From the NCBI GenBank assembly GCA_024734495.1, contig JALMQS010000153.1, positions 8,457,294-8,521,293 of the forward strand: DNA of 64,000 nucleotides, read 5' to 3'. Source of the stretch: Forficula auricularia (lineage: Eukaryota; Arthropoda; Insecta; Dermaptera; Forficulidae). This document shows, in pieces, positions 7,356 through 63,960 of the stretch; the first letter of the stretch is position 1, and each line of letters begins with the position of its first letter. The notes under the pieces are model-generated. The model was not told where the DNA came from, did not search any database, and saw only the letters and a list, made by a program, of their open reading frames with translations. The position numbers and the translations under genes were made by a program.

Positions 7356-7400
7356 AAAACGGACGATTCGTCACTATACTAGTGACTTCTTCAGCGAGTT
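7356..7400 (-). ncRNA. Hammerhead-like motif F1
   Basis: Minus strand, in order: AACTCG, CTGAAGA, A, stem II GTCAC / GTGAC (5 bp perfect, 7-nt loop TAGTATA), GAA, TCGTC, CGTTTT. The core CTGANGA and GAA are intact, but position 15.1 is T instead of A, and stem I pairs only partly. Pairs with F2 at 10791-10835 in the opposite orientation; the flanks (TATTGAATAAAAC here, GTCTTATTCAATA there) match too. Confidence 0.4.
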
Positions 7401-7621
7401 ATATTCTTCAATTCAATTGTCTGATATTATTATATGAAATCCATTCTATCTTTTTTAATTTATCTTATTCTGATCAGATCTGATTTCGCTTTCTGCGGTT
7501 CTTTGTTTTAACTATAATGAAAAATTATATTTTTTCTTTTGTTAAGGGAGAATGGTGTAGGTTCTTGGTGAAACATATTTTTAATAAAATAATGAAAATT
7601 TAAAAAATTAAAATATATATA

Positions 7622-7908
7622 CAGGGTAGGTCCCAAATTCATGGTACAAACTTTAATGGTAGGTACAGGACATTGTAACAATGAGTTATTGTATAGGAAT
7701 GTATAGTGTAATAAGTATATGTAATATGTATATGTATGTATAGTGTAATAGTAATATAGTGTATAATGTATGTATAATGTATAGCCGTTATTTCCCCGTT
7801 TACGCCTCACCGCGTCATTTGCGACTATACATTCCTATACAATAACTCATTGTTACAATGTCCTGTACCCACCATTAACGTTTGTACCATGAATTCGGGA
7901 CCACCCTG
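7622..7908. mobile_element. Mariner-like MITE with long inverted ends
   Basis: CAGGGTAGGTCCCAAATTCA opens it and the inverted match (CAGGGTGGTCCCGAATTCA when reverse-complemented) closes it, both beside TA (7620-7621, 7909-7910). The arms extend about 85 bp, through ATGGTACAAAC and GTACAGGACATTGTAACAA. The middle is a TATGTA-rich simple repeat. No protein. Confidence 0.65.
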
Positions 7909-7964
7909 TATATATATTTCTAGGTAGGTTTCACATAATAAAAGACAAGATGCTTATTAGCATG

Positions 7965-8008
7965 ACTCTCTATATATTTCGGGTCACGAACCCATCTTCA
8001 GGAGTTCA
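7965..8008 (-). ncRNA. Hammerhead-like motif C1
   Basis: Minus strand: GAACTC, CTGAAGA, T, stem II GGGT / ACCC (loop TCGTG), GAA, AT-only stem III (ATATATA), then GAGAGT. Stem I is ACTC/GAGA-GT with about 4 pairs. The base before the predicted cut is A preceded by T, allowed by the UH rule. Confidence 0.45.
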
Positions 8009-8852
8009 AAAAGAAAACTGAATACAAAAATATAAAATGGTTTAGAAGTAAAAATTTTTTAACATTAAAACAATCCCCTATTACTACCTCTTATTGTTAA
8101 ACTTGAAAAATTTTACTTCTAAACCATTTTATATTTTTAACACGCTTTTATTATCTTGACCTGTAGGTATGTATGTTTGCATGTATGTATCAAAATGTGA
8201 CGGAATCTTTCAACGTAATTTTCACCAAGTTCAAAGAGTCTGATTAATTTGAATATTTGCATTCGTATTAAGAACCGATGACAATACAATAATTTTAAAC
8301 AATCAAGGCAAAAAATTAACAGAGGGGGGAGGGGGCGAAATTTGAAAATTATAGCCCACTTTGGTCCAAACTCAACCAAAATTTGTATATATCATCTGTG
8401 GGCCTCCAGAAGGGTAAAAATACAAAAATTAACAAAAGTGGGGGGAAATTGGCAAAATATACTGACTCTTGTCAAATTTGGTCAAGTTTAGCGATGTACC
8501 CGTGGAATTATACCCATTTTAAGACTAAAAAGTAAAAAAATAAATTATAGCCTAAAAAAACAAAAAAAAACAAAAAAAAACACGCTTTTGTCAGTAATGC
8601 ATTAAAAAGTATAAAATAATGTATCTAAAATCTTTTTTATGTCCAATAACTAAGTCAAAAAGCGTGGGTCATGTTGTCGAAATTAATTAAAACTACCTCA
8701 AAGAAGCGGCTCCACGCTTTCTGACTTAGCTATTGAACATAAAAAAGTTTTTTAGGTACATTATTTTATACTTTTACTGCATTACTGACAAAAGCGTGTT
8801 TTTTTTTTTTTTTGTTTTTTTAAACAATAATTTTTATACTCAGTTTTCTCTT

Positions 8853-8896
8853 TGAACTCCTGAAGATGGGCTCGTACCCCGAAATATATAGAGTCA
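8853..8896 (+). ncRNA. Hammerhead-like motif C2
   Basis: Plus strand partner of C1: GAACTC, CTGAAGA, T, stem II GGG / CCC (loop CTCGTAC), GAA, ATATATA, GAGTC. ACTC pairs with GAGT as stem I. Oriented toward the outer end of the foldback, like C1. Confidence 0.45.
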
Positions 8897-9024
8897 TGCT
8901 AATAAGCATCTTGTCTTTTATTATGTGAAACTTACCTAGAATTATATATTTTTTAAAAATTAAATTTTTTTTTTTAATTTTCATTACTTTATTAAACATT
9001 AATGTGTTTAAGAATAAGATAAAT

Positions 9025-9749
9025 TAAATAAGCTGACGTGTTCTGATGTGGCCACTTGACTTTACCATACAACCTGGCCCCTCACTTATATTTAATATTT
9101 AATATAATTATCTATATTCATGTAGGGGGGTTAGTTTTTGCATTTTTAGACTCCTGGGGGCCCACTGATTATGTATACAAAATTTGGTTGAGTTTGGTAA
9201 ATGGTCAAGATTTTTATTTTTTGACCCCCCCCCCATTTCGGGGGTTAGTTATTGCATTTTTAGACTTCTGAGGGTCCACTGATTATGTATACAAAATTTG
9301 GTTGAGTTTGGTTAAATGGCCTAGATTTTTAATTTTAACCCCCCCCCACTCTTCACCCCTCTTAATTTTGGGTCGATATGAACCAAAATCAAATCAGCTC
9401 TTAATCTCAATGGACTAAAACTACGTGTGAAATTTGGTTTCGATATTCAAACTAGTTTTTGAGCTAGTTCGTCCACAAAAATTTGGTAACACACAGACTA
9501 ACGGACAACCAGAAAACCGGAGAGACAGACTAACAGACATTTTGACAAAACAATTATTATCTCGAAAATAATAATTTTTTCGATGTTCACTCATTAGAGG
9601 TTTTTGTAGAGCGAAATGCCATGGTTTAGCTCAATTTTTTTAATCCTAATAGTTTCAGCCGTTTTTGAGATATTTCGAAAAAAAGAAGGAAAAAAAAACA
9701 CTTTTTTCATGCATGATTACAATACTTGACTATACCCTGTATGGTAAAG
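9025..9749 (+). mobile_element. Helentron/HINE-like element, copy a
   Basis: It opens TAAGCTGACGTGTTCTGATG, then has CTTTACCATACA at 9060-9071 and closes with the inverted match TGTATGGTAAAG at 9738-9749. That last segment is half of a hairpin, TATACCC-TGTATGGT. Between are two copies of a 114-bp unit (GGTTAGTTTTTGCATTTTTAG ... ATGTATACAAAATTTGGTTG ... C-tract) and a unique block with GAGCTAGTTCGTCCACAAAA. Subterminal inverted repeats, an internal minisatellite and a 3' hairpin are the layout of Helentron-associated elements (DINE/HINE). Related copies: 36640-37467, 55478-56037, 28345-29110, 52738-52960. Confidence 0.55.
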
Positions 9750-9760
9750 CAAAAATATAG

Positions 9761-10766
9761 AATACTAGCTGCAAGGCTTCGCCTCGGCGGCCCTTCATAC
9801 AGGGGGCACGCCCCTGGACCCCCAACCCACGAATCCCACCCTCACACTACACTCTCCCAGACCCATCCAGCACCCATACCCCCGCACCATGAACCCGTGC
9901 CCAACCCCCGCTCCCATACCACAGAACCCAAACCTCACCCCCCACTCCAACCCACCACACTCCCCGAAACCCACCCAGCACCCCCCCCCACCCCTCACCC
10001 CACCCACCTCGGGCCCCCAACACACGAACCCCAACCTCACCCCCCACTCCAACCCACCACACTCCAAGAAACCCACCCAGCACCCCAACCCCCGCCCCCA
10101 CACCACCACTTCAACACTCTAACCTGCACCCCCACCTCGGACCCCCACCCCGTACCACCCCACTACGCCACTGGACTCTCACCTGAACCCCCCATCCACC
10201 AACCTTGCACCACCCCCTGTGCCCCCCCCCCTCCATTTTGGGTGGTTAGTTTTTGCATTTCTAGCTCTCTAGAGGCCTACAGATTATGTATACAAAATTT
10301 GGTTGAGTTTGCTCCAAGGGCAAGAATTTATATATTTTTCTCTTCCCCCCTTTTTGGGTGAGCTTTTTGGGGAATTTTTAAACAAAAGTTGTCAGAAATC
10401 GCATCCCCTACAACTTTGCTCATTATAAAATTTCCCGTAGAGTTAATAGTTTAAGAGTTATTTGATAATTTTCATTCGTGCACTCCCCAAACCCCCTTTT
10501 GGGGTCAAAATATCAAAACGTTATATAGCTAAAAACGTAAGTTAGAAGACCTCTGATACAAATATGAAATTTCATAATAATCCCTTCAGCCGTTTTGACG
10601 TGAATCGTGAGCAACTTTTCGCGGAAACCACTGAAACAGACAGACATACAGACAGGAATTTTGTTGAGGGTGTCTTCGTTCATAACTTTGCTTGAAACGT
10701 GTGCAACCAAAATTTGGCGTGATTTGGACCAATGTACAGACAAAACCTTAATTTTATATATATAGA
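9761..10766 (+). mobile_element. GC-headed non-autonomous element, copy 1
   Basis: Starts TACTAGCTGCAAGGCTTCGCC, passes through a C-rich tract, one copy of the 115-bp unit (10235-10345) and a block that ends AGACAAAACCTTAATTTTAT, TATATAG. The second copy, 31349-32296, has the same order: GC-rich head, C-rich tract, three 115-bp units, same tail. An inverted tail fragment is at about 34043-34100. The superfamily is not clear; shared 115-bp units suggest a link to the HINE-like elements. Confidence 0.5.
9790..10230 (+). repeat. Strand-asymmetric C/A-rich minisatellite
   Basis: About 440 bp made of CCCCAACC, CCCACTCC and CCACC words, nearly free of G on the plus strand. The minus strand is therefore G-run rich and could form G-quadruplexes. 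The long proline-rich and glycine-rich frames here come from this composition. Internal duplication: CACCCCCCACTCCAACCCACC occurs twice (about 9938 and 10036). Confidence 0.65.
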
Positions 10767-10790
10767 TGTTTCGTATAATAATATCAGACA

Positions 10791-10835
10791 AGTGAGTTGA
10801 AGAAGTCGCAAATATAGTGACAAAACGCCCGTCTT
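10791..10835 (+). ncRNA. Hammerhead-like motif F2 (decayed)
   Basis: Plus strand: GTGAGT, TGAAGA (first C of the core lost to T), A, stem II GTCGC / GTGAC (one changed pair), AAA instead of GAA, ACGCC, CGTC. Inverted partner of F1 and more damaged. Confidence 0.3.
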
Positions 10836-10936
10836 ATTCAATATAATACTCTGAATTTAATTTATTTATCCAATTTCCTAAGATCTTCTAAATTAGATTA
10901 ATAATATTTGTGATAAATAAATTTCAAAATGTTTAC

Positions 10937-11107
10937 CCGTTCTTCACTTTTCCAATATATAAAAAATCCATATTCATCCACTTTGAAAAGACAATCTGTT
11001 TCGAAATCGATATTATCTTTTTCTTCTGTCCACCGATCAAACACCGAGCCATTTAACAATTGCTCGGGCACAGGGATATGCCAATTAAACTCGAAACGTT
11101 TCGTCAT
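10937..11107 (-). CDS. norpA: norpA coding exon 1 (start of PLC beta)
   Basis: First coding exon of norpA-type phospholipase C beta. The ATG at 11107-11105 sits in CCACAATGA, a good insect start context, and the exon encodes 57 residues beginning MTKRFEFNWHIPVPEQLL and including VFDRW and LFKVDEYGFFIYWKSEER before the donor CGG|GTAAAC at 10936. MTK-x-F-E-F-x-W-x-IPVP at the N terminus and KVDEYGFF-x-YWKSE are hallmarks of norpA rather than of the other insect PLC beta. With exons 2 and 3 this gives the first 123 residues, that is, most of the PH domain that helps seat the enzyme at the membrane and on G-protein beta-gamma or Rac. The product acts at the inner face of the plasma membrane; in eyes, at the rhabdomere. 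Identity by remembered family sequence. Confidence 0.9.
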
Positions 11108-12175: not shown

Positions 12176-12465
12176 AAACAAAAGATGTTTAAGGTAGTTG
12201 TATCGCAACAATAATAGCAAAAATTTAATGCTAGATTATATAAGTACAGACAATAAGGATTCATAATTCATAAACCCAAAACTTTTGCTGTTTATGTACC
12301 ACTACTAGCCAATCCCGTGCTCGTTTGACAACTCTGTCAACACTGTCCAAGCTTGTATATATTTTATCATAGAAATTTCAGATAAAGTACATTATAAAGG
12401 GATAGTTTTTAAGGAATTTGGTGTTGGTACTTGGTGAAACATTTTTTAAATTATTGGATAAAATA

Positions 12466-12668
12466 CTTGGTAGGTTTCACATTAAGATATAAAAAAATAA
12501 AACGAATTTATGTTTGAGAATCTTTAATCTCGATATATATATTTCGGGTGACTAACCCATCTTCAGGAGAAACAGAAAGTAAGTCACCCGAAATATATAT
12601 ATCGAGATTAAAGATTCTCCAAAAATAAATTCGTTTTATTTTTTTATATCTTAATGTGAAACCTACCA
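12466..12668. repeat. Foldback element, family B
   Basis: Arms of about 85 bp, 12466-12552 and 12583-12668, are near-perfect inverses (GGTAGGTTTCACATTAAG at the outside, TCTCGATATATATATTTCGG inside). The centre holds a complete hammerhead-like motif on the minus strand; the right arm keeps only its 3' half. The outer GGTAGGTTTCACAT matches the outer end of family C at 7922. Confidence 0.65.
12528..12570 (-). ncRNA. Hammerhead-like motif B
   Basis: Minus strand: TCTC, CTGAAGA, T, stem II GGGT / ACCC (loop TAGTC), GAA, self-pairing ATATATATAT as stem III, C at the cleavage position, then GAGA, which pairs perfectly with the opening TCTC (4 bp). All conserved core positions are present apart from the extra T. 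Confidence 0.5.
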
Positions 12669-13244
12669 AGTATTTTTATCCAATAAATTATAAAGGGAGT
12701 TTTATAAAACATAAAGTTCTTAATAAGCGATTGAAAGCTGTTGCGACAATGGCTGAAGCGAAAAAACGTCAAAAAAGTGCTAAAGTTAACCCACTTTTTA
12801 GGTTAAATATATGCGTTGTTGCCAGCTTGTTTTTAGTGTAAATTTTTCATTATTTATTCATTATTATCTCAGAAACTGTGTTGTAACAATGAATTAAAAT
12901 TTTCTTAAAAAATGTATTAGTTATTGTTTAATGTTGGTTTAGTTTTTTATAATCATGGTAAGAAGAGTTTCTTAATTATAATTATATATGTATGTAAATT
13001 TTCCGATATCCCGTATAGTGCAATGTATAAGAGTCTGAAAAACTCTTATCTGAATTTAATATCTCCGGAACTATATTGTTCATAAATTTAATTTTGCCAC
13101 CAATCGATCAGAAGTATTTAAATAATAATCTGTCTAAATTTCAAAAAAATCCTAAGAAAACCCATATTGTGAAACAACTACCTTAATAAAACTTAGGGAT
13201 TGCGGTGTGGATTTAAAGTTTTTTTCTTTCTTAAATTGGTATAC

Positions 13245-13508: not shown

Positions 13509-13511
<3 letters not shown>

Positions 13512-13563: not shown

Positions 13564-13567
<4 letters not shown>

Positions 13568-18564: not shown

Positions 18565-19129
18565 AAAGGCACAATAAACTTTACGGAATAAAATTATTTT
18601 TACATAGAAAAAAAATTCCAACTTATACAATGTCTATAACAAAATTTAATCAGTAAAAAAAAAGTTTAATGCTTGTATTATAAAATAATCTTAAGTGCTA
18701 CTTGAGAACCAGTTAAAGATAAATGAGGTCAGGATAAAAGGGTTAAGAACCACTGCTTTAGACCTAGGGTCTCGAGGAGTAAGTGATTTATTAAAATTAT
18801 TTTTATCTAATACAACGAAAATGGTTATCATTTTTTTCAATTCATTTATGTAGATTTATTTTCATAAATGTTAAAATCGAAAAGGTCACCTTGTCACAAA
18901 TTCGTTGTTTTATTAATAAATGTTCATTTTTTTTCTTACTTTATCAATTTATTTTTAAATTTCAAAATATTTTATAGGTAGGGGAAGGGTAGGCAAAGTG
19001 GCCATGGCGGGCAAAGTGTCCTCAGAGGTGCCGTATCGCACTGGGAACGCCCTAACTTGTTCCACTCAATTAATAAAATAAAGGGTGTGTAGTTTCACAG
19101 TGAATGAAATAAAACTCAAAGAGGTTTAT

Positions 19130-19178
19130 ACAAACTCAATATATTTCGGATTATTAGTCCATCATCAGGAGTTTACAG
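19130..19178 (-). ncRNA. Hammerhead-like motif D1
   Basis: Minus strand: TGTAAACTC, CTGATGA, T, stem II GGA / TCC (loop CTAATAA), GAA, ATATATT, GAGTTTGTA. Stem I is AAACTC with GAGTTT, 6 pairs, extendable by two wobble pairs. The core is intact apart from the shared extra T. Confidence 0.5.
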
Positions 19179-19443
19179 GTTAAAACTAATAATATTTGAA
19201 CATGCGATCACAATTTTTAACATTTAAATCATACGTACCAATATAACAAAATATAACATTCAAATCATACGTACCAATATAACACAAGAAAAACATCAAC
19301 ATTTAACAATAAATAAAATTTTAATTTCTTGTGTTATATTAGTACGTATGATTTGAATGTTATATTTTGTTATATTGGTACGTATGATTTATAATAGATA
19401 TTAAAAATAGTGATCTCATGTTCAAATATTACTAGTTTTAACC

Positions 19444-19492
19444 TGCAAACACCTGATGATGGACCAATAATCCGAAATATATTGAGTTTGTA
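19444..19492 (+). ncRNA. Hammerhead-like motif D2
   Basis: Plus strand partner: TGCAAACAC, CTGATGA, T, stem II GGA / TCC (loop CCAATAA), GAA, ATATATT, GAGTTTGTA. Stem I is CAAACAC with GAGTTTG, six of seven paired. Confidence 0.45.
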
Positions 19493-19756
19493 TAAACCTC
19501 TTTGAGTTTTATTTCATTCACTGTGAAACTACACACCCTTTACTTTATTAATTAATATCATGTTTCAGCTAAAACCTACACCACCTTCTCTAAGTAAAAT
19601 TGTTCTACTCAATGCTATCAATGAGAAGGCTGATCTGGTTAACGAATCGTCTCTAGAAGTTATTAAAATTTTTGCAGTTTTTGACCATCCCGATGTAAGC
19701 CAAGTGCTCAAAACATTTATAGTGAAATTTTAAAAAGAATAAACAAGAATAATTTT

Positions 19757-38746: not shown

Positions 38747-39352
38747 AATATAAAAGTAAAGATTTGAGCATCTTATTTTTGAAAAGAGTTGGAATGTTTT
38801 TCAAAAATGAGCTCGGGTTCAGATTAACAAATCAATTTTAAACTAGAAAGAATTTAATTTCTAGGACAGAATCTAAGATTTTAATAGAAATATTATTAAA
38901 TTGCGATATCAGAGGGGATTCATCCCCCCAGGAGTCGAACCTGAGAACTAACTTGCTTTCCGGGCAGTCAGCTCACACCCTCGAGACAAAAAACTCCCTC
39001 TGAATCGCAATATTTGATGTAAGCATAGAAATCTTTCACTCCATTAATATATAACGGAAATTAAAAAAAATTATCTTAATAATGAAAAAAAGTTTTTCAT
39101 ACAAGTCCTGCTATTTTAATATAAAAGTAAAGATTTGAGCATCTTAGTTTTGAAAAGAGTTGGAATGTTTTTCAAAAATGAGCTCGGGTTCAGATTAACA
39201 AATCATTTTTAAACTAGAAAGAATTTAATTTTTAGGACAGAATCAGACAGAAATTGATTTGTTAATCTGAACCGGAGCTCATTTTTGAAAAACATTCCAA
39301 CTCTTTTCAAAAATAAGATGCTCAAATCTTTACTTTTATATTAAAATAGCAG
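38747..39352. repeat. Palindromic element with tRNA-like core, left part
   Basis: TTTATAATATAAAAGTAAAG-type sequence with GAAAAGAGTTGGAATG occurs twice directly (38747-38873, 39117-39243) and once inverted (39252-39352). Between the direct copies lies a tRNA-like core (38912-39004). The segment 38857-39100 is inverted again at 41854-42108, beyond the LINE, so the LINE landed in one arm of a large palindromic structure. Confidence 0.6.
38912..39004 (-). repeat. tRNA-like core 1 in inverted TTGCGAT arms
   Basis: Minus strand: CAGAGGG opens and CCCTCTG closes (7 pairs). Inside are TGTCTCGAGGGTGTGAGC (A-box-like), CTGACTGC-CCGGAAA-GCAAGTTAG (arm with 7-nt loop) and CTCAGGTTCGACTCCTGGG (T arm, perfect B box). 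ATTGCGATT and its inverse flank the core. Same family as 35940, 41949, 63449 and 63812. Confidence 0.6.
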
Positions 39353-39360
39353 GACTTGTA

Positions 39361-41847
39361 TCATCATCATCATCGAGTATACAGTCCTAAGACTGGTTTG
39401 ATGCAACAATCCGTCTCCACTCGACTCTGTCCCCCGCCAGCTGTTTGACCTCTCTAAATGTCTGCCATATCCCCAATTATTTGGTTGAAATATTCTAATC
39501 TGGGTCTTCCCCTTCCCCTTTTCTTTCCCACCTCCCCCTCCAAGATATCCCTAAGCAGTCCCCCATGTCTCAGTGTGTGCCCCATCATCTGACCTCTTCT
39601 CTTCTTCAGACTCTTCCACAAGGTTCTTCTTTCTCCGATTCTTCCAAGAACTTCTTCATTTGTAATTTTATCTATCCATTTGATATTCATCATTCTTCTG
39701 TAGCACCACATTTCGAAAGCCTCTAATCTCTTTCTCTCCGCTTTTCTAATTGTCCAGGTTTCACACCCGTACATGGGCTATGCTCCATACATATGTCTTC
39801 AATAGCAACTTCCTGTTTTCTAAGCTGATTGAGGAGGAGCATAGTAGTTTTTGTTTTGAATTAAACCCCATTTTTGCTTGGGCAATTCTTGATTTAATTT
39901 CGTTTTCGCTCCTCCCATCCCATGTTATTTTACTTCCTAGGTAGCGGAATTCCTTAACTCCTTCCAGGTTTTCTTCGTTAATTTTGATGCATTCCTGTCT
40001 CGTTTGTTCTTTTTTGTACATACTAGGACCTTGGTTTTATTCTTGTTTATTTTCATTTTGATTTCTTCTATTAGGATTTGGTTAATTCCATTCAGGGCGT
40101 CCTCTAATTCTTTTTTATTGCTTCCTAGAAGGGCAATGTCATCGGCAAATCTTAACATAGCGATCTTTTGACCTTGGATTTCGATACCTGTATCAATTTT
40201 GTCTTTGAATTCTTTAATCGCTTCTTCTATGTATAAGTTGAAAATCATGGGTGACAGCACACATCCTTGTCTTACACCTTTTTTTATTTTGGCTTCTCTT
40301 TGCTCATCTCCAATATTTATAATTGTCGTCTGGTTTTGATATAGATTGTAGATTAGTCTTCTCTTCTGAATTTTATTCCCGCCTGTTTTAATATTTTAAA
40401 CATAATTTCCCAATTGACGTTAACGAATGCTTTTTCTAGGTCTATGAATCCGATGTAGTAGACAGATTCTTCCCTGATAAAAGCCCTTTCTATTATTAGT
40501 CTAAGAGAGAGAATTGCTTCTCGGGTGCCTCTGTTTCTTCTAAAGCCGAACTGGTCTTCCCCCAGATTTTCTTCAACTCTTTGTTCTATTCTTCTTTGGA
40601 TTATTTTGGTTAGGATTTTGGAGACATGTGAGGTTAGGCTAATGGTCCTGAAATTTTCACATTTATCCGCGCCTGTCTTTTTGGGAAGTGTGACTATTTT
40701 GTTTTTTTCGAAATCTTTTGGGATGATTACCAATTTATAGATTTTGCTAATTAGTTCAAAAAGTTTGTCAAGTGCCTTTTCCCCAGAGTTCTTTAGAATT
40801 TCAGCTTGTATATTGTCTATTCCGGGTGCTCTATTATTTTTTAGTTCCTTCAAAGCTGTCTCGAATTCTGACCTGAGTATGGGGTCTCCTAATTCGTTTT
40901 CGTCCACAGATTCTTCTTCTTCTATTGGGTTCATTGTTTTTTCTTCTCCATATAGTTCTTCTAGGTGTTCCTTCCATCTATTTGCCTGTTCGTTTTCGTT
41001 TAGAATAATGTGGCCTCCTTTATCTCTTATGTTCTTGCTTTTTGGCTTGTCTTCTTGAAAATTTCTTTTTATTGCCCTATAGGCTACATCAACTTTTCCC
41101 AGTACTAGATTTTCGTTGACTTCTTTACATTTTTCTTGAATCATTTTTTCTTTTGCTTTTCTACATTCTCTTATAACTTTCCATCTTAATTTTTTATATG
41201 TTTCTTTCCCTTCTTCGTCTTTTCTGTTCTTAAATTTTCTTCGTTCGTCAATCAGTTGCAGTATTTCGTCTGTTCTCCATGGCTTTTTAATTTCGTTTTT
41301 CTTTGATTGAAGGACTTTGTTGGCTGTTTCGGTCAGGCTTGATTTCATATCATTCCATTCTTGTTCGATTTCTTCTTCTTTATTATTTGTGGGTGTTTTT
41401 TCTTCCAGTTTCTTATTCATTACGTTTTCGAAGAGTTTTTGGGTTTCCTTATTTTTTAATTTAGATATATCCCAGCTTTTTCGCGACCCTCCCTTTTTAT
41501 TAGTTTTTTAAATTTTAGTTGGCATTTCATCGCAATTAGATTGTGATCACTAAAAATATCAGCCCCAGGATAGCTTTTACAGTCCTTTACTTGATTTCTG
41601 AATCTTTGTTTGACTAATATGTAATCTATTTGAAATCTCCCCTTGTCTTTTGGCATTTTCCTCGTGTAGATCCTTCTTGGATGGTGTTGGAAGAGTGTGT
41701 TTGCTACTACTAGACTGTGCTTACTGCAAAATTCAATTAATCTTTCGCCCCTTTCATTCCTATTTTCTAGACCGTGTTCGCCCACCACTTTTCCTTCTTT
41801 GCCTTTTCCTACTCTTGCATTCCAATCCCCCATAATTATTAAATTTT
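39361..41847 (-). mobile_element. 5'-truncated RTE-clade LINE
   Basis: A 2.49 kb non-LTR retroelement on the minus strand. It is flanked by the 6-bp direct repeat CTTGTA (39355-39360, 41848-41853). Deleting it and one repeat restores the continuous AGGACTTGTATGAAAAAC seen, inverted, at 39090-39110, which proves the insertion site. Its 3' end is a short (GAT)n run, as is usual in RTE elements, rather than poly(A). The 5' end is cut inside the endonuclease domain. The coding relic is described next. Confidence 0.85.
39454..41833 (-). pseudogene. RTE LINE endonuclease / reverse transcriptase, broken
   Basis: Read from 41833 downward the frames give, in order: the C-terminal half of an APE-type endonuclease (MGDWNARVGKG, IDYILVKQRF and the catalytic SDH in FSDHNLIAMK); a linker with ENFRTISL; reverse transcriptase with QFGFRRNRGTREA, motif A FIDLEKAF; a break near 40350-40260; LSPMIFNLYIEEA, then motif C FADDIALLGS; a second break near 39950; YLGSKITWDG; a third near 39770; and the C-terminal MYGCETWTIRKAER and GRGRPRLEYF segments. 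This is the domain order of RTE/BovB-type elements, by remembered motifs. At least three frameshifts and the missing N-terminal endonuclease make it inactive. The T-A-R-like YGCETW...RRMM tail is well kept, so the copy is not ancient. Confidence 0.85.
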
Positions 41848-41853
41848 CTTGTA

Positions 41854-42110
41854 TGAAAAACTTTTTTTCATTTTAAGCTAAATTTTTTAATTTCCGTTAT
41901 ATATTAATGGAGTGAAAGATTTCTATGCTTATATCAAATATTGCGATTCAGAGGGAGTTTTTTGTCTCGAGGGTGTGAGCTGACTACCCGGAAAGCAAGT
42001 TGGTTCTCAGGTTTGACTCCTGGGAGGATGAATCCCCTCTGATATCGCAATTTAATAATATTTCTATTAAAATCTTAGATTCTGTCCTAGAAATTAAATT
42101 CTTTCTATTT
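41854..42110. repeat. Palindromic element with tRNA-like core, right arm
   Basis: Inverse of 38857-39100 (TGAAAAACTTTTTTTCATTT, GTTATATATTAATGGAGTG, ending GGACAGAATC-type sequence). It starts at the LINE's target duplication. Confidence 0.65.
41949..42041 (+). repeat. tRNA-like core 2
   Basis: Plus-strand relative of 38912-39004, with CAGAGGG/CCCTCTG closing pairs. The B box has one change (GGTTTGACTCC) and the middle arm CTGACTACCCGGAAAGC is slightly altered. ATTGCGATT and ATCGCAATT flank it. Confidence 0.55.
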
Positions 42111-43397: not shown

Positions 43398-43448
43398 GAA
43401 TGAGCCAGACGTTTCGTCGATTAATTTCGACTTCTCAGTGGCTCATTC
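43398..43448 (-). ncRNA. Hammerhead-like motif A1 (best stem I)
   Basis: Minus strand: GAATGAGCCA, CTGAGAA, stem II GTCG / CGAC (loop AAATTAAT), GAA, ACGT (two-pair stem III with no loop), C, then TGGCTCATTC. Stem I is 10 perfect pairs and the cleavage triplet would be GTC. The one core defect is A where G8 should be. In the partner copy (A2) that region reads CTGAGGAA, so the family core was probably CTGAGGA plus the extra A, and this copy has lost one G. Small type I hammerheads of this shape are known in Penelope-like elements. Confidence 0.55.
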
Positions 43449-43780
43449 TATCACTCTTGTCAAAAGACAATTCCACTACGCGACGAAACATCTTTAATCT
43501 TTTTATTATTTTAACTACAATACATTGCATTTAGGCCTCAATTGCTCAATAATCTTGAACTTTTATACACTTGAACAATTAAAAATTTTAAATCAAAATT
43601 CTCACAAAAAATATGTTGTTTTTACTTTTGATTTAAAGTTTTTAATTGTTCAAGTGTAAAAAAGTTCAAGATTGTTGAGCAATTGAGGCCTAAGCCAACA
43701 ATGTATTGTAGTTAAAATAATAAAAAAGATTAAAGGATGTTTCGACGCGTAGTAGAATTGTCTTTTGACAAAGAGTGATA

Positions 43781-43830
43781 GAATGAGCCACTGAGGAAGT
43801 CGAAATTAATCGACGAAACGTCTGGCATTG
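43781..43830 (+). ncRNA. Hammerhead-like motif A2
   Basis: Plus strand: GAATGAGCCA, CTGAGGA, A, stem II GTCG / CGAC (loop AAATTAAT), GAA, ACGT, C, TGGCATTGG. The catalytic core is complete apart from the shared extra A. Stem I is shorter than in A1 (GCCA with TGGC, 4 pairs, then mismatch). Confidence 0.55.
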
Positions 43831-43850
43831 GAATTGAATGAATTTGCTTA

Positions 43851-44762
43851 TAACTCGAAAACTATCAACGTTTCGTAAATAACTCTCCTATTCAAAATGA
43901 AAGTTCATAAAGTTTCCTACAAATTTCATCATTCAGGTTTTTCTCCGACTAACCGTTCGGGCTCAAGCGCTAGTTGAAAATTGTGGTATTTTTTCTGTTT
44001 CCGCAAATCCTAAAAACTCGCACTTTTTTGGATTTTTTCCCATTTTGACCATGAAAGACCACTATATATATTTTTTTAAACTATATTAAATTTGATACAA
44101 TTTAAACAAAATTTCATCTTAAATGGATAATGGTAACCCGTGCCGCAATAAGGTTGAATTTTTGAAAATCGTAGTTTTTCCTTCATAAAATGAAAACCAC
44201 TCATCCTAGAAACTTGATTTCTGCCTCATTCTCGAGGAAATTTTGTTGACTTAAACGTTTACATGAACCACTTTTTTGATGAAACTCTTAGATTTATAGA
44301 TTCCATGACACTTTTGAGGATTCGGATTTCCTTTGTAGGAAATTTTATGAACTTTCATTTTGAATAAGGAAGGTTATTTAAGAAAAGTTGATAGTTTTCG
44401 TGTTATAAGAAAATAAAAGCCAAAAATGAGATTTTTTACCTTTTTTTTTTTTTTTTTGACAATATTCCGTCACGAAATTTTGTTAGCAAACCTCAGATTC
44501 CGATTCAGCACACCAAAAAACATATAGGATCAAAAAAATCAAAAACTACCCCCGAGGGGGCCTTTAGACAACAATTTAATTGGAGTAAAAAGGTACTTCA
44601 AGAAATTAAGATTTAACATAAGAAATATATTTAATTACGTGTTAGATTGCCATAATAAAAGGTTTGTCGTTTACTACCAACTTATTAATATTTTATAAGT
44701 ACACCGATTAAAAAAACATCTTTAGAATCGTTTCTGAGAAAATCCCAAAAAATGAAAAATCT
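43851..44762. repeat. Left arm of 3.7 kb foldback (repeat J inside)
   Basis: About 0.91 kb, inverted at 46673-47590. Sampled windows differ by only a base or so (for example AAAAAGGTACTTCAAG against AAAAAGGTAGTTCAAG). It contains repeat J and, at its inner end, a sequence unique to the pair (GTAAACGACAAACC region). Confidence 0.8.
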
Positions 44763-44934
44763 TTCGTGTAAATGTAAACTTCCGGTGTTCCGATTTCAAT
44801 GTCTAATGACTTATTGTGCCACACAGAGGGGGAGCCCTTTACAGAAAAGAAAAAACATATTTTTTACAAATTATATTACAACTCCTCATCAGCCGACCGA
44901 ATAAAAACGCTAGATGTTGAGGCTATTAATAGTT

Positions 44935-45610: not shown

Positions 45611-46557
45611 TATATGAGAAAGAAAGTATAATAGAATTGCATGGAAAATTGCATAGATAGATTGAGGGATTAATGGAGTAGTTTTTTTAATTGAAAAAAT
45701 TGTTTTAAATGGAAGGAATGGGTTGAATTGAAGTGTGTTGATTGGAAATTGAGGTGTAGGAATTGGTTGAATTGAATTGTCTTTTTGAAGTGTTTTGATT
45801 GGAAGGTATAGTTTGGGTTGAATGGAAGTGTCTGGTGTGTGGGCCGTGTTCCGTGTTTTTCGATAGACTCCCTCCGTTTTCCCTCTACTCTCCTCGCCTT
45901 GGACCATGTGTTATAATAGGCCATTCTTGATTGGTTGCTTGATTGTTTCTCCTTTTTTTGCATACGATGGGGATGTCATTCTTGGTAACTCTTTCTTTCC
46001 ATCGTCTCGATTATTGACCTGCTCTGTTTAAAGAATAATCTATTTCTAATTGCCTTTTCCATGAAACCATCTTTAAATATCTAAATTATATCGATTATAA
46101 ATGAAAAATTATATTTTACTAGTTAATAATATCAAATTGCTTAATTATCATGGATTAAAAAAATTATAAAATTAAAATTATTGAATTTAAATCTCTAAAA
46201 AAAGATCTTGCTAACGAATCTGTGTTTTTCTCTATATAAATTTTCATACAATTTAGGATACATTGTAACATTCTATTTCAGCAGAAGAGAAGCTTGTTGT
46301 AATACTAAGGTAAGGAATTTTAATGAAATTAACACAATATAGCCCTTCCACCAAAACCGAAACGATATTGGGAAATCTGGCTACAAGCAGCAGTTTTCTA
46401 AGCAGATCACTTGCACAAGATTCAAAAAGTAATTAATTTTATTATTTAATAATTATTGCTGGCTTGGTGTGTACTTGATATATTAATTTTTTATTGTTAG
46501 GATAAATAAACTGAATTTGCTTCTTTCCAGTAATTTATTTTGTTTTTCAAATGGTTA

Positions 46558-46603
46558 TTCCAAATATTTCGAGAGCGTTCTCAGCATCTCTTCCTCAGTG
46601 GAA
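46558..46603 (-). ncRNA. Hammerhead-like motif G1
   Basis: Minus strand: TTCCA, CTGAGGA, A, stem II GAGA / TCTC (12-nt loop, TGCTGAGAACGC), GAA, ATATT, TGGAA. Stem I is TTCCA with TGGAA, 5 pairs. It lies about 70 bp outside the right foldback arm. Unlike most other motifs, it has no inverted partner right beside it; the related pair is at 52404-52577. Confidence 0.5.
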
Positions 46604-46672
46604 ACTGTGGGACCACACAATAGGCAAGTCAGTGAGTTGTTATAATTACAGGTGTCAAAAAAAACAGGAAAG

Positions 46673-47590
46673 ATTTTTCATTTTTTGGGATTTTCTCAGA
46701 AACGATTCTAAAGATGTTTTTTTAATCGGTGTACTTATAAAATATTAATAAGTTGGTAGTAAACGACAAACCTTTTATTATGGCAATCTAACACGTAATT
46801 AAATATATTTCTTATGTTAAATCTTAATTTCTTGAACTACCTTTTTACTCCAATTAAATTGTTGTCTAAAGGCCCCCTCGGGGGTAGTTTTTGATTTTTT
46901 TGATCCTATATGTTTTTTGGTGTGCTGAATCGGAATCTGAGGTTTGCTAACAAAATTTCGTGACGGAATATTGTCAAAAAAAAAAAAAAAGGTAAAAAAT
47001 CTCATTTTTTGGCTTTTTATTTTCTTGTAACACGAAAACTATCAACTTTTCTTAAATAACCTTCCTTATTCAAAATGAAAGTTCATAAAATTTCCTACAA
47101 AGGATATGATCCGAATCCTCAAAAGTGTCATGGAATCTATAAATCTAAGAGTTTCATCAAAAAAGTGGTTCATGTAAACGTTTAAGTCAACAAAATTTCC
47201 TCGAGAATGAGACAGAAATCAAGTTTCTAGGATGAGTGGTTTTCATTTTATGAAGGAAAAACTACGATTTTCAAAAATTCAACCTTATTGCGGCACGGGT
47301 TACCATTATCCATTTAAGATGAAAATTTGTTTGAATTGTATCAAATTTAATCTAGTTTAAAAAAATATATATAGTGGTCTTTCATGGTCAAAATGGGAAA
47401 AATCCAAAAAAGTGCGAGTTTTTAGGATTTGCGGAAACAGAAAAAATACCACAATTTTCAACTAGCGCTTGAGCCCGAACGGTTAGTCGGAGAAAAACCT
47501 GAATGATGAAATTTGTAGGAAACTTTATGAACTTTCATTTTGAATAGGAGAGTTATTTACGAAAAGTTGATAGTTTTCGAGTTATAAGCA
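46673..47590. repeat. Right arm of 3.7 kb foldback
   Basis: Inverse of 43851-44762. Beyond it (47591-47860) repeat J continues without a partner (TTCCGGGTAATAACACAATT). Confidence 0.8.
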
Positions 47591-47864
47591 AAAAATCGCC
47601 AAAAAATGATATTTTTGTTACCTTTTTTTTGGATTTTTGACAATGTTCCGTGACGAAATTTTATTAACAAGCCTCAGATTCGGATTCAGCACACCAAAAA
47701 ACATAAAGGATCGAAGAAATAACAACTACGGCAAAACTTTCCGGGTAATAACACAATTTATCTGGACTATTTGTTTAAAAAAGAAAAATTCCCACTAAAT
47801 ATTTTGCTTTCTGGATTGATCCCCCCATGAAAATTTTCTGGCTATGCCACCGAATACTACAATT

Positions 47865-50303: not shown

Positions 50304-50307
<4 letters not shown>

Positions 50308-51740: not shown

Positions 51741-51817
51741 TCATAAGTTCTTTTAAGTTGAAGGAGACAATAAAAGAATGTGTCTTATGCTGGAATTATA
51801 AATGTTTAATTTATTTA

Positions 51818-51865
51818 TAACGAGACTATAGTTTCGAGAGGTTTGCCCTCTTCATCAGTCTATTA
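51818..51865 (-). ncRNA. Hammerhead-like motif E1
   Basis: Minus strand: TAATAGA, CTGATGA, A, stem II GAGGG / CTCTC-type (G-C, A-T, G-C, G-T, G-C; loop CAAAC), GAA, ACT-AT-AGT as stem III, C, then TCGTTA. The cleavage triplet is GTC. Stem I pairs six positions with one bulged A and one wobble. Confidence 0.5.
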
Positions 51866-51926
51866 CAATTGATTCGTAGGAATTAATGTATCAACTATAG
51901 TCTTGTTATGAATAAATTAATGTCAT

Positions 51927-51968
51927 TAATGAAGAGGGCAAAGCTTTCGAAACTATAGTCTCGTTATA
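51927..51968 (+). ncRNA. Hammerhead-like motif E2 (decayed)
   Basis: Plus strand: AATGA in place of CTGATGA, A, stem II GAGGG / GCTTTC region, GAA, ACT-AT-AGT, C, TCGTTA. Stem II and III remain, the first half of the core does not. Confidence 0.3.
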
Positions 51969-52403
51969 AATAAATTAAAAATTTATAATTCTAGCAGAAG
52001 GCACACTCTTATTATTATTTATTGTTTCTTTCAATTATAAAATTTCTGCTTCTCTCGGCAAAAACTTTCAATTTAGTTATTATAAGATTAATAAGCTTTT
52101 AAAATCAAATTAATGTATTTTTAATCATAGTTATTGATTTATTTATTTATTTTTGTAATATTTTGAACTAATAAAGTGTAGGTGCCATATCGTTTTTAAG
52201 AAATGTACCTACTAAGTTAGAAAATTTGTAGTGTTTTTGTTAATATTTTCTAATAAAGAACATAATTTATAAATTAGTTAATTGACTTTATATTATTTTC
52301 ATACTAGCTTCAAGGCCCGCCTTTGCCTTAATTTTTTATTTTTAAAGAAAAATAAATTGAATTGCTTCTTTCCAGTAATTTATTTTGTTATTCAAATGGT
52401 TAA

Positions 52404-52447
52404 TCCAAATATTTCGAGAGCGCTCTCGGCATCTCTTCCTCAGTGGA
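52404..52447 (-). ncRNA. Hammerhead-like motif G2
   Basis: Minus strand: TCCA, CTGAGGA, A, stem II GAGA / TCTC (inner TGCCGAGAGCGC), GAA, ATATT, TGGA. Stem I 4 pairs. Core complete except for the shared extra A. Confidence 0.5.
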
Positions 52448-52533
52448 AACTGTGGGACCACCCCATAGGCAAGTCAGTGAGTTATTATAATTACAGGTGT
52501 CAAAAGGTGGGGGAGTGGGTGAGTACCACAGTT

Positions 52534-52577
52534 TCCACTGAGGAAGAGATGCCGAGAGCGCTCTCGAAATATTTGGA
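52534..52577 (+). ncRNA. Hammerhead-like motif G3
   Basis: Plus-strand inverted partner of G2 with the same core, stem II and TCCA/TGGA stem I. Confidence 0.5.
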
Positions 52578-52737
52578 TTAACCATTTGAATAACAAAATA
52601 AATTACGGGAAAGAAGCAATTCAATTTATTTATCCTTAACAATAAAAAAAGATGAAGAAATTCACCTAGTCCATGTCGTTCGTTGAAGATTAGCTGCATT
52701 GAATACTTTCTTCTCTGAAAATACCTAGATTTGAGAA

Positions 52738-59618: not shown

Positions 59619-59639
59619 TTATATCAAAATAAGGAGACT

Positions 59640-60335: not shown

Positions 60336-60337
60336 AT

Positions 60338-61306
60338 AAGGTGGGCAATAAAGATCTCACACATTTTGAAGAGGTACAAAAAAATGAAAAAAAAAACTGA
60401 ATATATTTTTGAAAAGAACATAAAATAATTTTTTTTAAATGTGTTTTAAACATTATCAGACAAAAAAACTGTGGGGGGGTGGGGGGGGGCAAAATGAAAA
60501 TTCTAGCCCTTTTGACCAAACTCAACCAAATTTTGTATACAACAGAATTATTATTATTATTATTATGTATACAAAATTTGGTTAGTTTTTACATTTCTAG
60601 ACTTCTGAGGGTCCACATTCAAAATTTGGTTGAGTTTGGTCAAAAGTGTTAGAATTTTCATTTTTGACTCTCCTTCCATTTTGGGTGGTTAGTTTTTGCA
60701 TTTCTAGTCTTTTTAGGGCCCACAGAATATGTATACAAAATTTGGTTGAGTTTCGTCAAAAGGGCTAGAATTTTCATTTTTGACCCTCTCCCCCACTTTG
60801 GGTTGTTATTTTTTGAAATTCTAGCTTTTTTGGGGCCAACAGTATATGTATACAAAATTTGGTAGAGTTTGGTACAAGAGCCTAGATTTTCATTTTTTGA
60901 CCATACACCCCCCCTCCCTCCCAATTTTGGGCGGTAGTTTTTGCATTTTTAGACTTCTGGGGTCCCACTGATTATGTATTCAAAATTTGATTGAGTTTGG
61001 TAAATGGCCAAGATTTTTATTTTTTGACCCTCTCCCCCCACCATTCTGGGGGGTGAGTTTTTGCATTTCCAGCCTTTTTTGGGGCCCACAAAATATGTAT
61101 ACAAAATTTGGTCAAAAGGGCTAGAATTTTTATTTTTGACCCCCCCCCCTTTTTTTTTCTTTTGTCCTGATGTAATGTTTAAAACACATTAAAAAAAATA
61201 TATATTTTATGTTCTTTTCAAAAATATATTCAGTTTTTTTCTAGTTAAATTTTTTCCAATTTTATTATACCTCTTCAAAATGTGGTAGATTTTTATGCCC
61301 TACCAT
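60338..61306. mobile_element. TIR element enclosing 115-bp arrays, copy 2
   Basis: TAAGGTGGGCAATAAAGATC at the left, inverse at the right (ATTTTTATGCCCTACCATG). The arms share TTTTGAAGAGGTA and GAATATATTTTTGAAAAGAA. Six 115-bp units inside (60490-61150), the first inverted relative to the rest. Compact version of 54348-56463. Confidence 0.65.
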
Positions 61307-61812
61307 GTATAAACATTTCCCCCCTCGGAAAAAAGTAAATAATTATTTTTAACCGAATGCGTTGACTTAATTTTATTTTAATTTATTTTAAGTGTAGTAT
61401 TTAAAAACTAGAATTTTCATTCTGTTTTTTTTTTTTAAATTTGTTTGCAAAATTTTATAAATTTTATTGTGAAATATTATATTATAATAAAGTTTTTTTT
61501 TTCAATATATATTCAACTAATATCACAGAAAGATTTTATTTGTAAAGTGCATCAAATTGAATGTATACTTCGAAATGATTGGATATTTATTTGAAAAATC
61601 TATCTATGACTATTTATATTCCCTATAAATGTAATGAAATTTAGCCAGGCGTCGGTTAATATTTGATACTGTTTGAAATAATGTTTAGTTATCATATTAA
61701 TCGACGAGAAGCTTCAATTTCTTTGACATGTTAAAATAAAATTAAACCAAATCGCATTTAAAATAACAGCAAATTTTGAGTGGAATCGTCTATTAAAAAA
61801 TAAAATCCTATT
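61307..61812 (-). other. Possible 3' untranslated region of the last gene
   Basis: Lies directly downstream of the 61815-61813 stop on the minus strand. It is AT-rich, has several TTTATT strings (AATAAA on the minus strand, for example near 61462), and no repeat block of the window was found in 61400-61812. How far the transcript extends cannot be told. Confidence 0.35.
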
Positions 61813-62178
61813 TTATACTAATCCGCTGTCCATTGGATTTCTTTTTTTCGAATCAGTTCGATGCAGTCGGACAGCCTCCGCCTGATGCTCCGGAGTCGAT
61901 TTTAGAATATCGGGTTGTTGGTGGAGTCGATCGGAGCCGGCGCCGGCGCTCGTCGCACCACCAAGACTTGTTAGTGTATTGTGAGCGGTGGATGTCGCTG
62001 TAGTTGCTGTGGCGGCTGCAGCGGCGGCAGCTGCAGCCGCAGCAGCTACCGTCGTTTGCCGGGGCCGAACTGATCGGTGAGAGCCATTTCGAGTTAACGA
62101 TCCCATTTGAGGTGTACCGGGAAGTGCCGTTCCCAGGGCATTCATATAATCGGCAATGAGCAGAGTCAATTCTAATAT
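61813..62178 (-). CDS. C-terminal exon of an unidentified protein
   Basis: A good acceptor (TTCTTCATTTTAG) at 62180-62179 opens a 121-codon frame in phase 0 that ends with TAA at 61815-61813. It begins ILELTLLIADYMNALGTALP, probably the end of a helical conserved domain, then turns into low-complexity, likely disordered tail: SLTRNGSHRSVRPRQTT, a 13-alanine tract with Ala/Thr continuation, a Gly/Ala/Ser part, and a charged end finishing NPMDSGLV. GC content is far above the surroundings, codon use is ordinary and the frame stays open through 366 nt, all arguing for a real exon. An ATG is not needed because the exon is internal to the protein; the TTG at 62169 is not its start. The body of the gene lies to the right, beyond the window; immediately upstream is a hAT-like insertion in the preceding intron. 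I do not recognise the family. Confidence 0.65.
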   Translation of the reverse strand: MLELTLLIADYMNALGTALPGTPQMGSLTRNGSHRSVRPRQTTVAAAAAAAAAAAATATTATSTAHNTLTSLGGATSAGAGSDRLHQQPDILKSTPEHQAEAVRLHRTDSKKRNPMDSGLV

Positions 62179-62267
62179 CTAAAATGAAGAAATATTTTTA
62201 AGAAAATGAAAACACTCTATACATAAACCTAACATAACCTATATTAATTTATTCTAAGCATATATAA

Positions 62268-62855
62268 AGGCCGGTTCACACGAGGCTTTTTCTGCTACTT
62301 GCTTGTTTGCAATTTGAAGCTAGTTCAGTCAGGCTGATTTTTTCCCTGTTGGCTTCACATGGAGCTTTTTCAGAAAATATTTCAAGTTGGCCGGTTATGT
62401 TGCGCGCGCAGGTTTCAGTCCAGACAATGAACCTTTGAGCCAAACATCTCGGCTATCATCTTTCAGTTACAGCTCAGATGCAAACAAAAATGGCTGACAA
62501 TAATATTATTGGAGAAATTATCAATCACAGACGAATTTGTCTCTTTATTCATTGCAGTAAAGAGTTGAACAGTGAGAAACAAAATATCAGCTGTTGTGTG
62601 ACGTCAGCTGATATATTGTGCCAACGCGCATGTCACCCACGTGATAAAATAATGCTTTCCGATTGGCTGCTACTACCAGAATCAAGTAGCTAAACTTTTT
62701 TTTTTAGAACATGTTCTATCTTTTAAATCAAGTAAGCATGCTAGTAAGACAGTCCGGAGTGACGTCATTACGACCCCCTCCATGCCTCCAAATTGCAAGT
62801 AAAGCGAACAAGTAAGGAACAAGCAAGAGAAAATGTCCCATGTGAACCCGTCATT
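62268..62855. mobile_element. hAT-like non-autonomous element, 8-bp duplication
   Basis: AGGCCGGTTCACACGAGGC at the left and the inverse of GACGGGTTCACATGGGAC at the right; both continue into CTTGCTTGTT...GCAATTTG, imperfect over about 50 bp. ATATATAA flanks both sides (62260-62267, 62856-62863). The inside is GC-richer (CGCGCGCAGG, GTGACGTCAGCTG) and holds a 71-codon open frame (62478-62693) without any transposase motif. Confidence 0.65.
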
Positions 62856-63297
62856 ATATATAAGATTAATGTGTGTCGGTGTATGTGTATGTGTGTGTTC
62901 GTCTTTTATGGGTTCGTGCATCATTCATACTAATGAGTTGATACTTTATACAGTTGTTAGCATTTGCGTGAAGGTTTCTGACTATTTTCATCAACATACA
63001 AAGAGCGGCTCAAAAAATGAAAATTTAGGCAAATACATTTTTCTCAATTTTCTTTTAATAATTAATTGGTTTTTTAATTTTAGATCCCACTACTAGTTAA
63101 TAAATTTTATATTAAAATCAGAAAATTTAATTAATTAGATAACTGGTTCAATAAATTGTAAAATTAATTAAAAGAAAAATAATTAATTTGAGGTATTGAA
63201 GATAGAGTGGAAGAATTTAATGCTGAATTGATGAAAAGACTGCTCAAAGATAAACACTAGTCTTATATATAAAAATTAATGTGTGTTGGAAGTTTCT

Positions 63298-63370
63298 TTT
63301 GCCGAGAGTAGCAGAATTTTTATAAATTAAAGGAGACAATAAAAGAGTGTGTCTTCTGCTGGAAAAGTAA
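63298..63370 (+). repeat. Family E flank, solitary
   Basis: TTGCCGAGAGTAGCAGAATT and GGAGACAATAAAAGAGTGTG as at 51755 and 6785, then TCTTCTGCTGGAAAAGTAA. The hammerhead part does not follow directly; it appears 560 bp later. Confidence 0.5.
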
Positions 63371-63448
63371 TTTTTTTAAAATAGAAAGAATTTAATTTTT
63401 TAGGACAATTTCTCAGATTTTAGTAGAAATATTCATTAATTGTTAAAT

Positions 63449-63541
63449 CAGAGGGGATTCATTCCCCCAGGAGTTGAACCTGAGAACTAAAATGGTATCT
63501 GGGCAGTCAGCTCACACCCTCGAGACAAAAACCTCTCTCTG
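63449..63541 (-). repeat. tRNA-like core 3
   Basis: Same family as 38912-39004. The closing pairs are CAGAGAG/CCCCTCTG-like and the B box reads GGTTCAACTCC (one change). The middle arm has lost the GGAAAGC loop (CAGATACCATTTTAG). Confidence 0.5.
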
Positions 63542-63811
63542 AATCGCAATATATGTTATAAGCAAAGAAATTTTTTACTCCATCCTTCAATAACGAAAAT
63601 TAAAAAATTCAGCTTAAAAGAAAAAAAAAGTTTTTATAGATGACCTTTTTAAAAACAAAAATCAAAAAGATTTATAATTGGAAGAATACTTGGAATGCTT
63701 TTCAAAAAATTAGCTCTGGTTAAAAAACCAATGTATATTTAAAATAGAAATAATTTAATTTTTCAGGACAAATTCTCTGATTTTAGTAGAAATATTCTTT
63801 AATTGCGAAAT

Positions 63812-63904
63812 CAGAGGGGAATTCATCCCCCCAGGAGTCGAACATGAGAACTAAAATGGTATCCAGGTAGTCAGCTCACACCCTCGAGACAAAAACCTCT
63901 CTCT
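63812..63904 (-). repeat. tRNA-like core 4
   Basis: Fourth family member, direct repeat of 63449-63541 about 363 bp later, with its flanking GGACAATTTCTCAGATTTTA-type sequence also duplicated (63405 and 63765). The B box is ATGTTCGACTCC. Confidence 0.5.
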
Positions 63905-63929
63905 CTCGATAATTTTTTTAATTTATTTA

Positions 63930-63960
63930 TAACAAGACTATAGTTTCGAGGGGCTTTCAC
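63930..63960 (-). ncRNA. Hammerhead-like motif E3, 3' half
   Basis: Minus strand: AGCCCCTCGAAACTATAGTC then TTGTTATAAA: stem II 3' side, GAA, ACT-AT-AGT stem III and C. The 5' half on this strand is replaced by other sequence. Confidence 0.3.

Follow-up and report, generated by a model that had tools for sequence, protein, structure and literature searches.

A 64,000-nucleotide (nt) stretch of the genome of the dermapteran Forficula auricularia (assembly GCA_024734495.1, contig JALMQS010000153.1, positions 8,457,294 to 8,521,293; hereafter the window) carries a set of short motifs that are very probably minimal type I hammerheads, as predicted from their sequence, of the pseudo-long terminal repeats (pLTRs) of Penelope-like elements (PLEs); the insertions that hold them appear to consist of pLTR sequence only, mostly as two ends joined head-to-head. 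An initial annotation of the window had described seven families, A to G, sharing one hammerhead layout, and on re-reading the window their sequences are found where it had placed them. The head-to-head palindromes, the membership in the Penelope-like elements and a G at the cleavage site of family E are additions to that description. The layout itself is supported as real on the evidence of the letters, and points to a hammerhead-type RNA structure with one extra nt after CUGANGA for which catalysis is a prediction.

A blind scan for CTGANGA, zero to two nt, a stem II of at least three Watson-Crick pairs, GAA and a stem I of at least three pairs returned ten full matches in the window, nine of them with exactly one inserted nt, an A or a T. 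One hundred dinucleotide-shuffled windows gave a mean of 0.5 matches and a maximum of three, and when the core words were permuted on the real window the hammerhead words came first among 540 combinations (ten matches, runner-up three, mean 0.35). A covariance model built from nine copies found 11 places in the window at E-values up to 0.004 and noise beyond; these are the nine training rows, the other G arm and the defective A copy, and the E motif falls outside the model. The annotated layout with its one extra A or U is borne out by the blind matches as a common plan, from which individual copies of A, E and F deviate. The A copy at 43398, taken to be intact, lacks one core base; F, given as a full layout, reads GAAT instead of GAAA and has only two stem I pairs beside the core; the E copy at 63980 was presented as a full motif and in fact runs off the end of the window after CTGATGAAG, and the other E arm (51927) has lost its CTGA. 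The statement that no family has G at the cleavage position is likewise mistaken: position 17 is H (not G) in A, B, C, D, F and G, whereas family E reads GAA ACTATA/G TCT, with G at that position.

Because single copies mostly have unremarkable folding energies (eight copies, z between -2.46 and +0.74), the evidence lies in the shared core and in compensation, not in stability. No Rfam hammerhead family reached its gathering score in the window, and searches of the full window and of three short segments at D, G and A gave none at E <= 10. Rfam hammerhead models expect a stem III, so this miss is compatible with the minimal type. A suggestive hairpin immediately 3' of the cleavage position, sharing part of the stem I strand, was considered and rejected as a general feature; in the folding test only B and F stood out, these two of the 11 copies being matched in stability by no more than 3% of shuffles. 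A pattern scan of 55 stretches of viral contigs yielded no convincing hammerhead, stem I and stem II together never exceeding five pairs. The same scan of one further viral stretch and ten prokaryote stretches gave no convincing hammerhead either; one of these 11 has a 6-bp stem II with no convincing stem I, and the others have no stem II.

The pairing of the stems is maintained while their sequences change. In the seven family representatives 26 of 28 stem II pairs are formed, against a mean of 16.4 over all 5040 permutations of the 3' strands, two of which reach 26; the 3-bp stem I shows 20 of 21 pairs against a mean of 11.7, and 12 of the 5040 permutations equal it. While the compensation holds, the annotated number of families does not translate into independent lines, which are about five, not seven, since B, C and D are alike across the motif (82-87% over 40-46 nt). 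After collapse to five lines the observed pairing is reached by two to four of 120 permutations. In an alignment of nine copies, with stem III padded or trimmed for register, 93.7% of cells pair, against 63.4% in shuffles, with a covariation score of 0.81 against 0.23; this test favours the model because E was left out (MAFFT misplaced it, and it departs from the UH rule). A fairer sample comes from a local survey of the window together with a contiguous 200-kb stretch of the same contig (contig 60, 8000001-8200000; 264 kb in all), in which 34 places, 26 of them distinct, were chosen by the core alone with pairing not required. In the distinct copies 70 of 78 stem II positions are paired; 2000 permutations gave 35 on average and never more than 48. 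A looser core gave 48 places, in which stem I has a mean of 3.2 pairs (permuted 2.2, maximum 3.1) and stem II 57 of 69 pairs (permuted 29, maximum 45), and which comprise 25 structural types. Genome-wide, the pattern CTGANGAWGN{6,24}CGAAAYRTMT has 17,741 + 17,605 = 35,346 exact matches in 1,061,512,967 bases, against 3 + 1 = 4 for the reversed pattern. The earlier proposal that cross-family compensation supports an RNA structure with an extra nt is upheld by the stem tests, by the 25 types and by these counts. The same results bear on the possibility that the motifs are terminal inverted repeats of DNA transposons (miniature inverted-repeat transposable elements), hammerhead-like by chance or through the shared ancestry of one family. 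The palindromic shape, the abundance of hammerhead-free palindromes in the window and the sequence shared by B, C and D would suit such an origin, which compensated stems among 25 types and core words far above controls render most improbable, and which the identity of one palindrome with a PLE pLTR (see below) refutes for the E-type.

The extra base lies between A9 and the opening G-C pair of stem II and is invariant in the alignment. The blind descriptor finds 34 matches in the 200-kb stretch and none in its reversed sequence; 28 have one inserted base, always A or T, and the remainder, two with no inserted base and four with two, look like shifted or chance readings. At the 34 core-only places of the survey the base is A in 24 and T in 10, and among the 48 looser-core places there are 29 A, 18 T and 1 C. 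In a stretch of 200 kb that is 68% AT, finding A or U in a few families would not by itself be remarkable; what stands out is that the number of inserted bases is so constantly one.

Families A, B, C, D, E and G each include a head-to-head inverted pair, and F is single (Table 1). The minus-strand copy, or its remnant, always lies on the left and the plus-strand copy or remnant on the right, with the 3' ends pointing outward. Beyond the cleavage position the arms continue for 57 to 89 nt in families B, C, D, E and G but for only 4 nt in family A, and the tail word GTGAAACCTACC is common to B and C (three exact copies and one with a mismatch). Stem III is tiny or absent; it is self-complementary in five of the seven families (A, B, C, D and G) and not in E and F.

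Table 1. Hammerhead motifs and the inverted structures that hold them (window coordinates)
Feature	Position	Strand	Score or identity
Family A palindrome, two head-to-head hammerheads, almost no tail	43404..43826	.	self-inverted alignment 90%
A hammerhead, intact core, extra A, stem III ACGU, C at cleavage position	43783..43830	+	34.9 bits
A hammerhead, one core base missing, long perfect stem I	43400..43446	-	23.4 bits
Family B palindrome, right arm with 3' half of motif only	12443..12694	.	self-inverted alignment 89%
B hammerhead, extra U, stem II GGGU/ACCC	12524..12574	-	42.9 bits
Family C inverted pair, arms about 120 nt	7910..8949	.	92%
C hammerhead, left arm, extra U	7963..8009	-	52.2 bits
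C hammerhead, right arm, extra U	8852..8898	+	49.2 bits
Family D palindrome	19068..19553	.	self-inverted alignment 90%
D hammerhead, left arm, extra U, stem I of 9 bp	19130..19176	-	56.6 bits
D hammerhead, right arm, one stem I mismatch	19445..19491	+	51.4 bits
Family E palindrome, right arm (51927) without CTGA	51769..52016	.	self-inverted alignment 80%
E-type motif, extra A, G at cleavage position 17	51818..51866	-	10.9 bits, E-value 4.2, outside model
Start of a further E copy, ends at window edge after CTGATGAAG	63992..64000	+	
F motif, extra A, GAAU, weak stem I	7354..7402	-	29.6 bits
Degenerate inverted relative of F, 3.4 kb off	10749-10916		
Family G palindrome	52332..52649	.	self-inverted alignment 86%
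G hammerhead, left arm, extra A	52400..52451	-	35.9 bits
G hammerhead, right arm, extra A	52530..52581	+	35.9 bits
G hammerhead in one-armed copy (46483-46660)	46555..46606	-	37.3 bits

The arrangement is not peculiar to the window. Of the 48 looser-core copies, 36 have a head-to-head inverted partner within 1.5 kb, one has only a tail-to-tail partner and one only a direct neighbour. They build 24 palindromes in the 264 kb, a few of them nested, whose outer ends recur within some types (e.g. 72083 and 95266), and 20 of the 24 have AT-rich flanks (0.83 over the first 6 nt, declining to 0.72 by 50 nt, against 0.68). Two D-type hammerheads of the 200-kb stretch (52039-52118), separated by 79 nt, form a direct pair within a larger inverted structure. 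Metazoan non-LTR (non-long terminal repeat) retrozymes, which are short non-autonomous direct tandems with canonical type I hammerheads that spread through circular RNA, share with the copies described here their small size, the lack of coding sequence and the presence of a hammerhead; insects are within their reported host range (PMC7229834), and the direct pair at 52039/52118 has the orientation that they would require. An origin from retrozymes is nonetheless very unlikely, given one copy in 48 with a direct neighbour only against 36 that are head-to-head, a stem III that is tiny and self-complementary or absent rather than canonical, and a PLE pLTR that matches both arms of a palindrome.

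In the window, the outer edges of a long inverted repeat (43843-44769 / 46664-47592, 96-98% complementary) touch the A palindrome, and the one-armed G copy adjoins its inner edge. Beside the degenerate relative of F, one frame has a Pfam PH_14 match (1.2e-8; about 10940-11071, minus strand), perhaps an exon or a relic.

The connection with Penelope-like elements was made through the coding sequence. A genome search for GIY-YIG gave 150 scored matches out of 3423 candidates, several of them in open frames of 825-864 aa, and the segment 388316-418668 of contig 563 holds at least five matches in both orientations, three of them in tandem at a spacing of 2.9 kb. One locus on that contig, L117, has an 858-aa open frame with RVT_1 (1.7e-16) and GIY-YIG (8.4e-6) domains and the motifs RYVDD and YVGKT; the element is a 2909-bp tandem whose 792-nt overlap is identical. 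An E-type motif lies upstream of this frame and reads AGA CTGATGA T GAAGAC CAA GTCTTC GAA ACTATA G TCT. Positions 849-1079 of L117 correspond to the right arm (98.7%) and 849-1047 to the left arm (98.0%) of the palindrome at 68535-68943 of the 200-kb stretch, so that the arms end at L117 positions 1079 and 1047. This 32-nt tail difference compares with Penelope tails given as 31 bp (PMC3846280) and 30-40 bp (PMC11167929). On contig 663 an internally cut PLE frame is joined head-to-head, with a 4-nt overlap, to a piece of pLTR running from within the hammerhead to position 1083. From the arm identity with L117 and the joint on contig 663 it follows that the E-type palindromes are inverted PLE insertions reduced to their pLTR ends. 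Families A, B, C, D, F and G would belong to the PLEs by their core, extra base, head-to-head layout and arm length.

It is possible, if less probable, that the palindrome propagates as a unit, as a non-autonomous foldback element of PLE pLTR origin, with the pairs inherited whole rather than made at each insertion. Several types recur as pairs, outer ends repeat within a type, and the G loop is partly common to the copies at 46483-46660 and 52328-52505, all of which such an element would explain. It would account less well for the spacing of the paired motifs, which varies within the GGAGG type between 28 (45033/45062), 107 (72222/72329) and 141 nt (95406/95547), for the single arm of the G copy at 46483, for the arms of the palindrome at 68535-68943, unequal by the 32-nt tail, or for the pair on contig 663, in which two unequal pieces of a single PLE overlap by 4 nt.

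Several observations weigh against the assignment of the motifs to pLTR-only insertions of PLEs. The window's own E copy has just 75% identity to L117 over 75 nt, and linkage to an open reading frame (ORF) was found for the E-type only, the other six families being placed with the PLEs by architecture. No PLE reverse transcriptase (RT) or GIY-YIG domain was found near the window hammerheads by Pfam searches in six frames (covering 6.9-13.1, 17-22, 42.2-47.2, 50-55 and 61.3-64 kb and, elsewhere, ten of the 42 longest ORFs), and PLE motifs are absent from the window, the 200-kb stretch and 30 loci. Of the 48 local copies, ten stand alone and 13 have a direct neighbour, either as the only partner or besides others. 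Target-site duplications are in weak excess: those of at least 7 nt flank 5 of 24 palindromes against 5.5% expected, and for at least 8 nt the figures are 4/6 against 107/1000. Inverted arms of any kind make up 15% of the window, where palindromes with no hammerhead are common. Finally, three of five covariation measures in the nine-copy alignment favour the structure and two do not exceed shuffles, namely both-side pair changes and further pair types, which are reached by 134 and 275 of 500 shuffles.

Minimal type I hammerheads of PLEs are reportedly the subject of papers by Cervera and de la Pena in 2014 and by Lunse, Weinberg and Breaker in 2017. They are described as having a CUGANGA..GAA core, stems I and II and hardly any stem III, and as occurring in thousands of dispersed copies in pLTRs (PMC6155905, PMC7761336); in a coral, minimal and canonical motifs together make up 16 families (PMC7229834). 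The Forficula motifs have the same core, stems, tiny stem III, dispersed copies and pLTR location. Compared through these reviews they differ in the A or U before stem II (28 of 34 matches in the 200-kb stretch and nine of ten in the window), in the mostly head-to-head arrangement and in the lineage with G17. They are of a known kind; what may be new is that the A/U in front of stem II is uniform and that a young PLE lineage retains the fold while having G17. Among the titles and abstract openings listed in literature searches, none reports palindromic hammerhead pairs or the extra base in PLEs, which says little on novelty as the primary papers on PLE hammerheads lay outside the comparison. 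The Penelope elements of Adineta vaga likewise have head-to-head inverted pLTRs, palindromic joints, an optional 31-bp tail and pLTR-only copies (PMC3846280), and the text of that paper does not contain the word 'hammerhead'. Here, in contrast, ORF-less pLTR-only pairs prevail and target-site duplications show only a weak excess. With PAc of Anolis carolinensis the element shares an ORF with RT and GIY-YIG, tandem copies, a hammerhead upstream of the RT start, AT-rich targets and, putatively, the cutting and extension of both strands (PMC11167929). Two differences stand out: the PAc hammerhead cuts with the help of protein, whereas the E-type has G17, and the PAc start codon lies in stem II (PMC11167929), whereas the first ATG of L117 is about 230 nt 3' of CTGA.

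A single extra base has a precedent outside the retrotransposons. The plus-strand hammerhead of chrysanthemum chlorotic mottle viroid has one unpaired base, A10, between A9 and G10.1, with the same choice of A or U as here; A is tolerated, U makes trans cleavage 3-4 fold faster, and C and G are harmful (PMC3705267). The viroid ribozyme has full stems and loop contacts, unlike the motifs described here, and the likeness implies no relation to retrotransposons. Other core insertions in natural hammerheads are recorded at positions 2, 6 and 13 (PMC3088659).

The E-type reads AGAC ... GUCU, which puts at position 17 a G able to pair with C3, and accounts for 10 of the 48 local copies. Its stem II variants are still paired (GAGGGC/GCCCTC, GAAGAC/GTCTTC and GACA/TGTC), and in one E-type pair the arms are identical over 106 nt and 98.4% alike across the whole palindrome. 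The NUH rule demands H at the cleavage position, and because G17 breaks it the E-type should not cut. In vitro, PAc still inserts when its hammerhead is disabled (PMC11167929), so a fold that does not cut need not stop an element. Tentatively, and with considerable doubt, the PLEs of this genome may be seen as carriers of a hammerhead subclass of their own, in which an A/U between A9 and stem II is obligatory, including a young autonomous E lineage in which the fold was kept, with compensated changes in stem II, and G fixed; the fold would then be selected for a non-cutting role, such as protein binding or the choice of the RT start, or the motif would cut by an unusual route.

How the palindromes arise may be pictured as follows. 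At an AT-rich site with both strands cut, the PLE protein would begin reverse transcription on each strand from a point shortly 3' of the hammerhead, and two truncated complementary DNAs would join at their 5'-template ends, leaving a head-to-head palindrome with a set outer end. The PAc protein likewise acts at AT-rich sites, where it cuts the two strands and extends both, and the RT start of PAc, 111-118 nt into the ORF, is about 85-92 nt from the hammerhead cut at +26 (PMC11167929); the palindrome arms here end at a similar distance from the cleavage position. For Adineta vaga, self-priming on an antisense template has been proposed as the source of inverted pLTRs (PMC3846280). In minimum-energy folds of palindrome transcripts the hammerhead is paired with its antisense arm (34 of 51 nt in B and 41 to 52 nt in the others), so the palindromic copies are probably poor ribozymes. 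A likelier place of action would be transcripts of tandem PLE copies, in which the self-complementary stem III (ACGU, AUAU, AUAUAU) could pair two hammerheads and allow cleavage as a dimer. The title of the paper by Lunse, Weinberg and Breaker reportedly speaks of dimers, which the self-complementarity of stem III would fit.

The remaining repeats of the window are of other kinds. Its RT belongs to a long interspersed nuclear element (LINE), with Schistocerca, aphids and Diaphorina among the named relatives in the best hits. Endonuclease and RT pieces of the LINE (39454-41872, minus strand, broken frame) lie between 228-nt inverted repeats that are 97% complementary (38841-42110), and relatives of these repeats recur at 63392-63654. 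Repeats of about 115 nt that contain runs of C, both dispersed and in tandem, are scattered over 9111-61153 and include 23 copies of a 76-nt core.

Rfam hammerhead models can miss the minimal Penelope-type class. The role of minimal hammerheads in Penelope-like elements is called unknown in one review (PMC7761336), and with at least 35,346 matches, numerous types with compensated stems, a PLE together with its pLTR and a lineage that naturally has G17, this genome provides material for the question of whether such motifs serve to fold or to cut. The same genome offers material on how inverted pLTR pairs may arise by reverse transcription from both cut strands.

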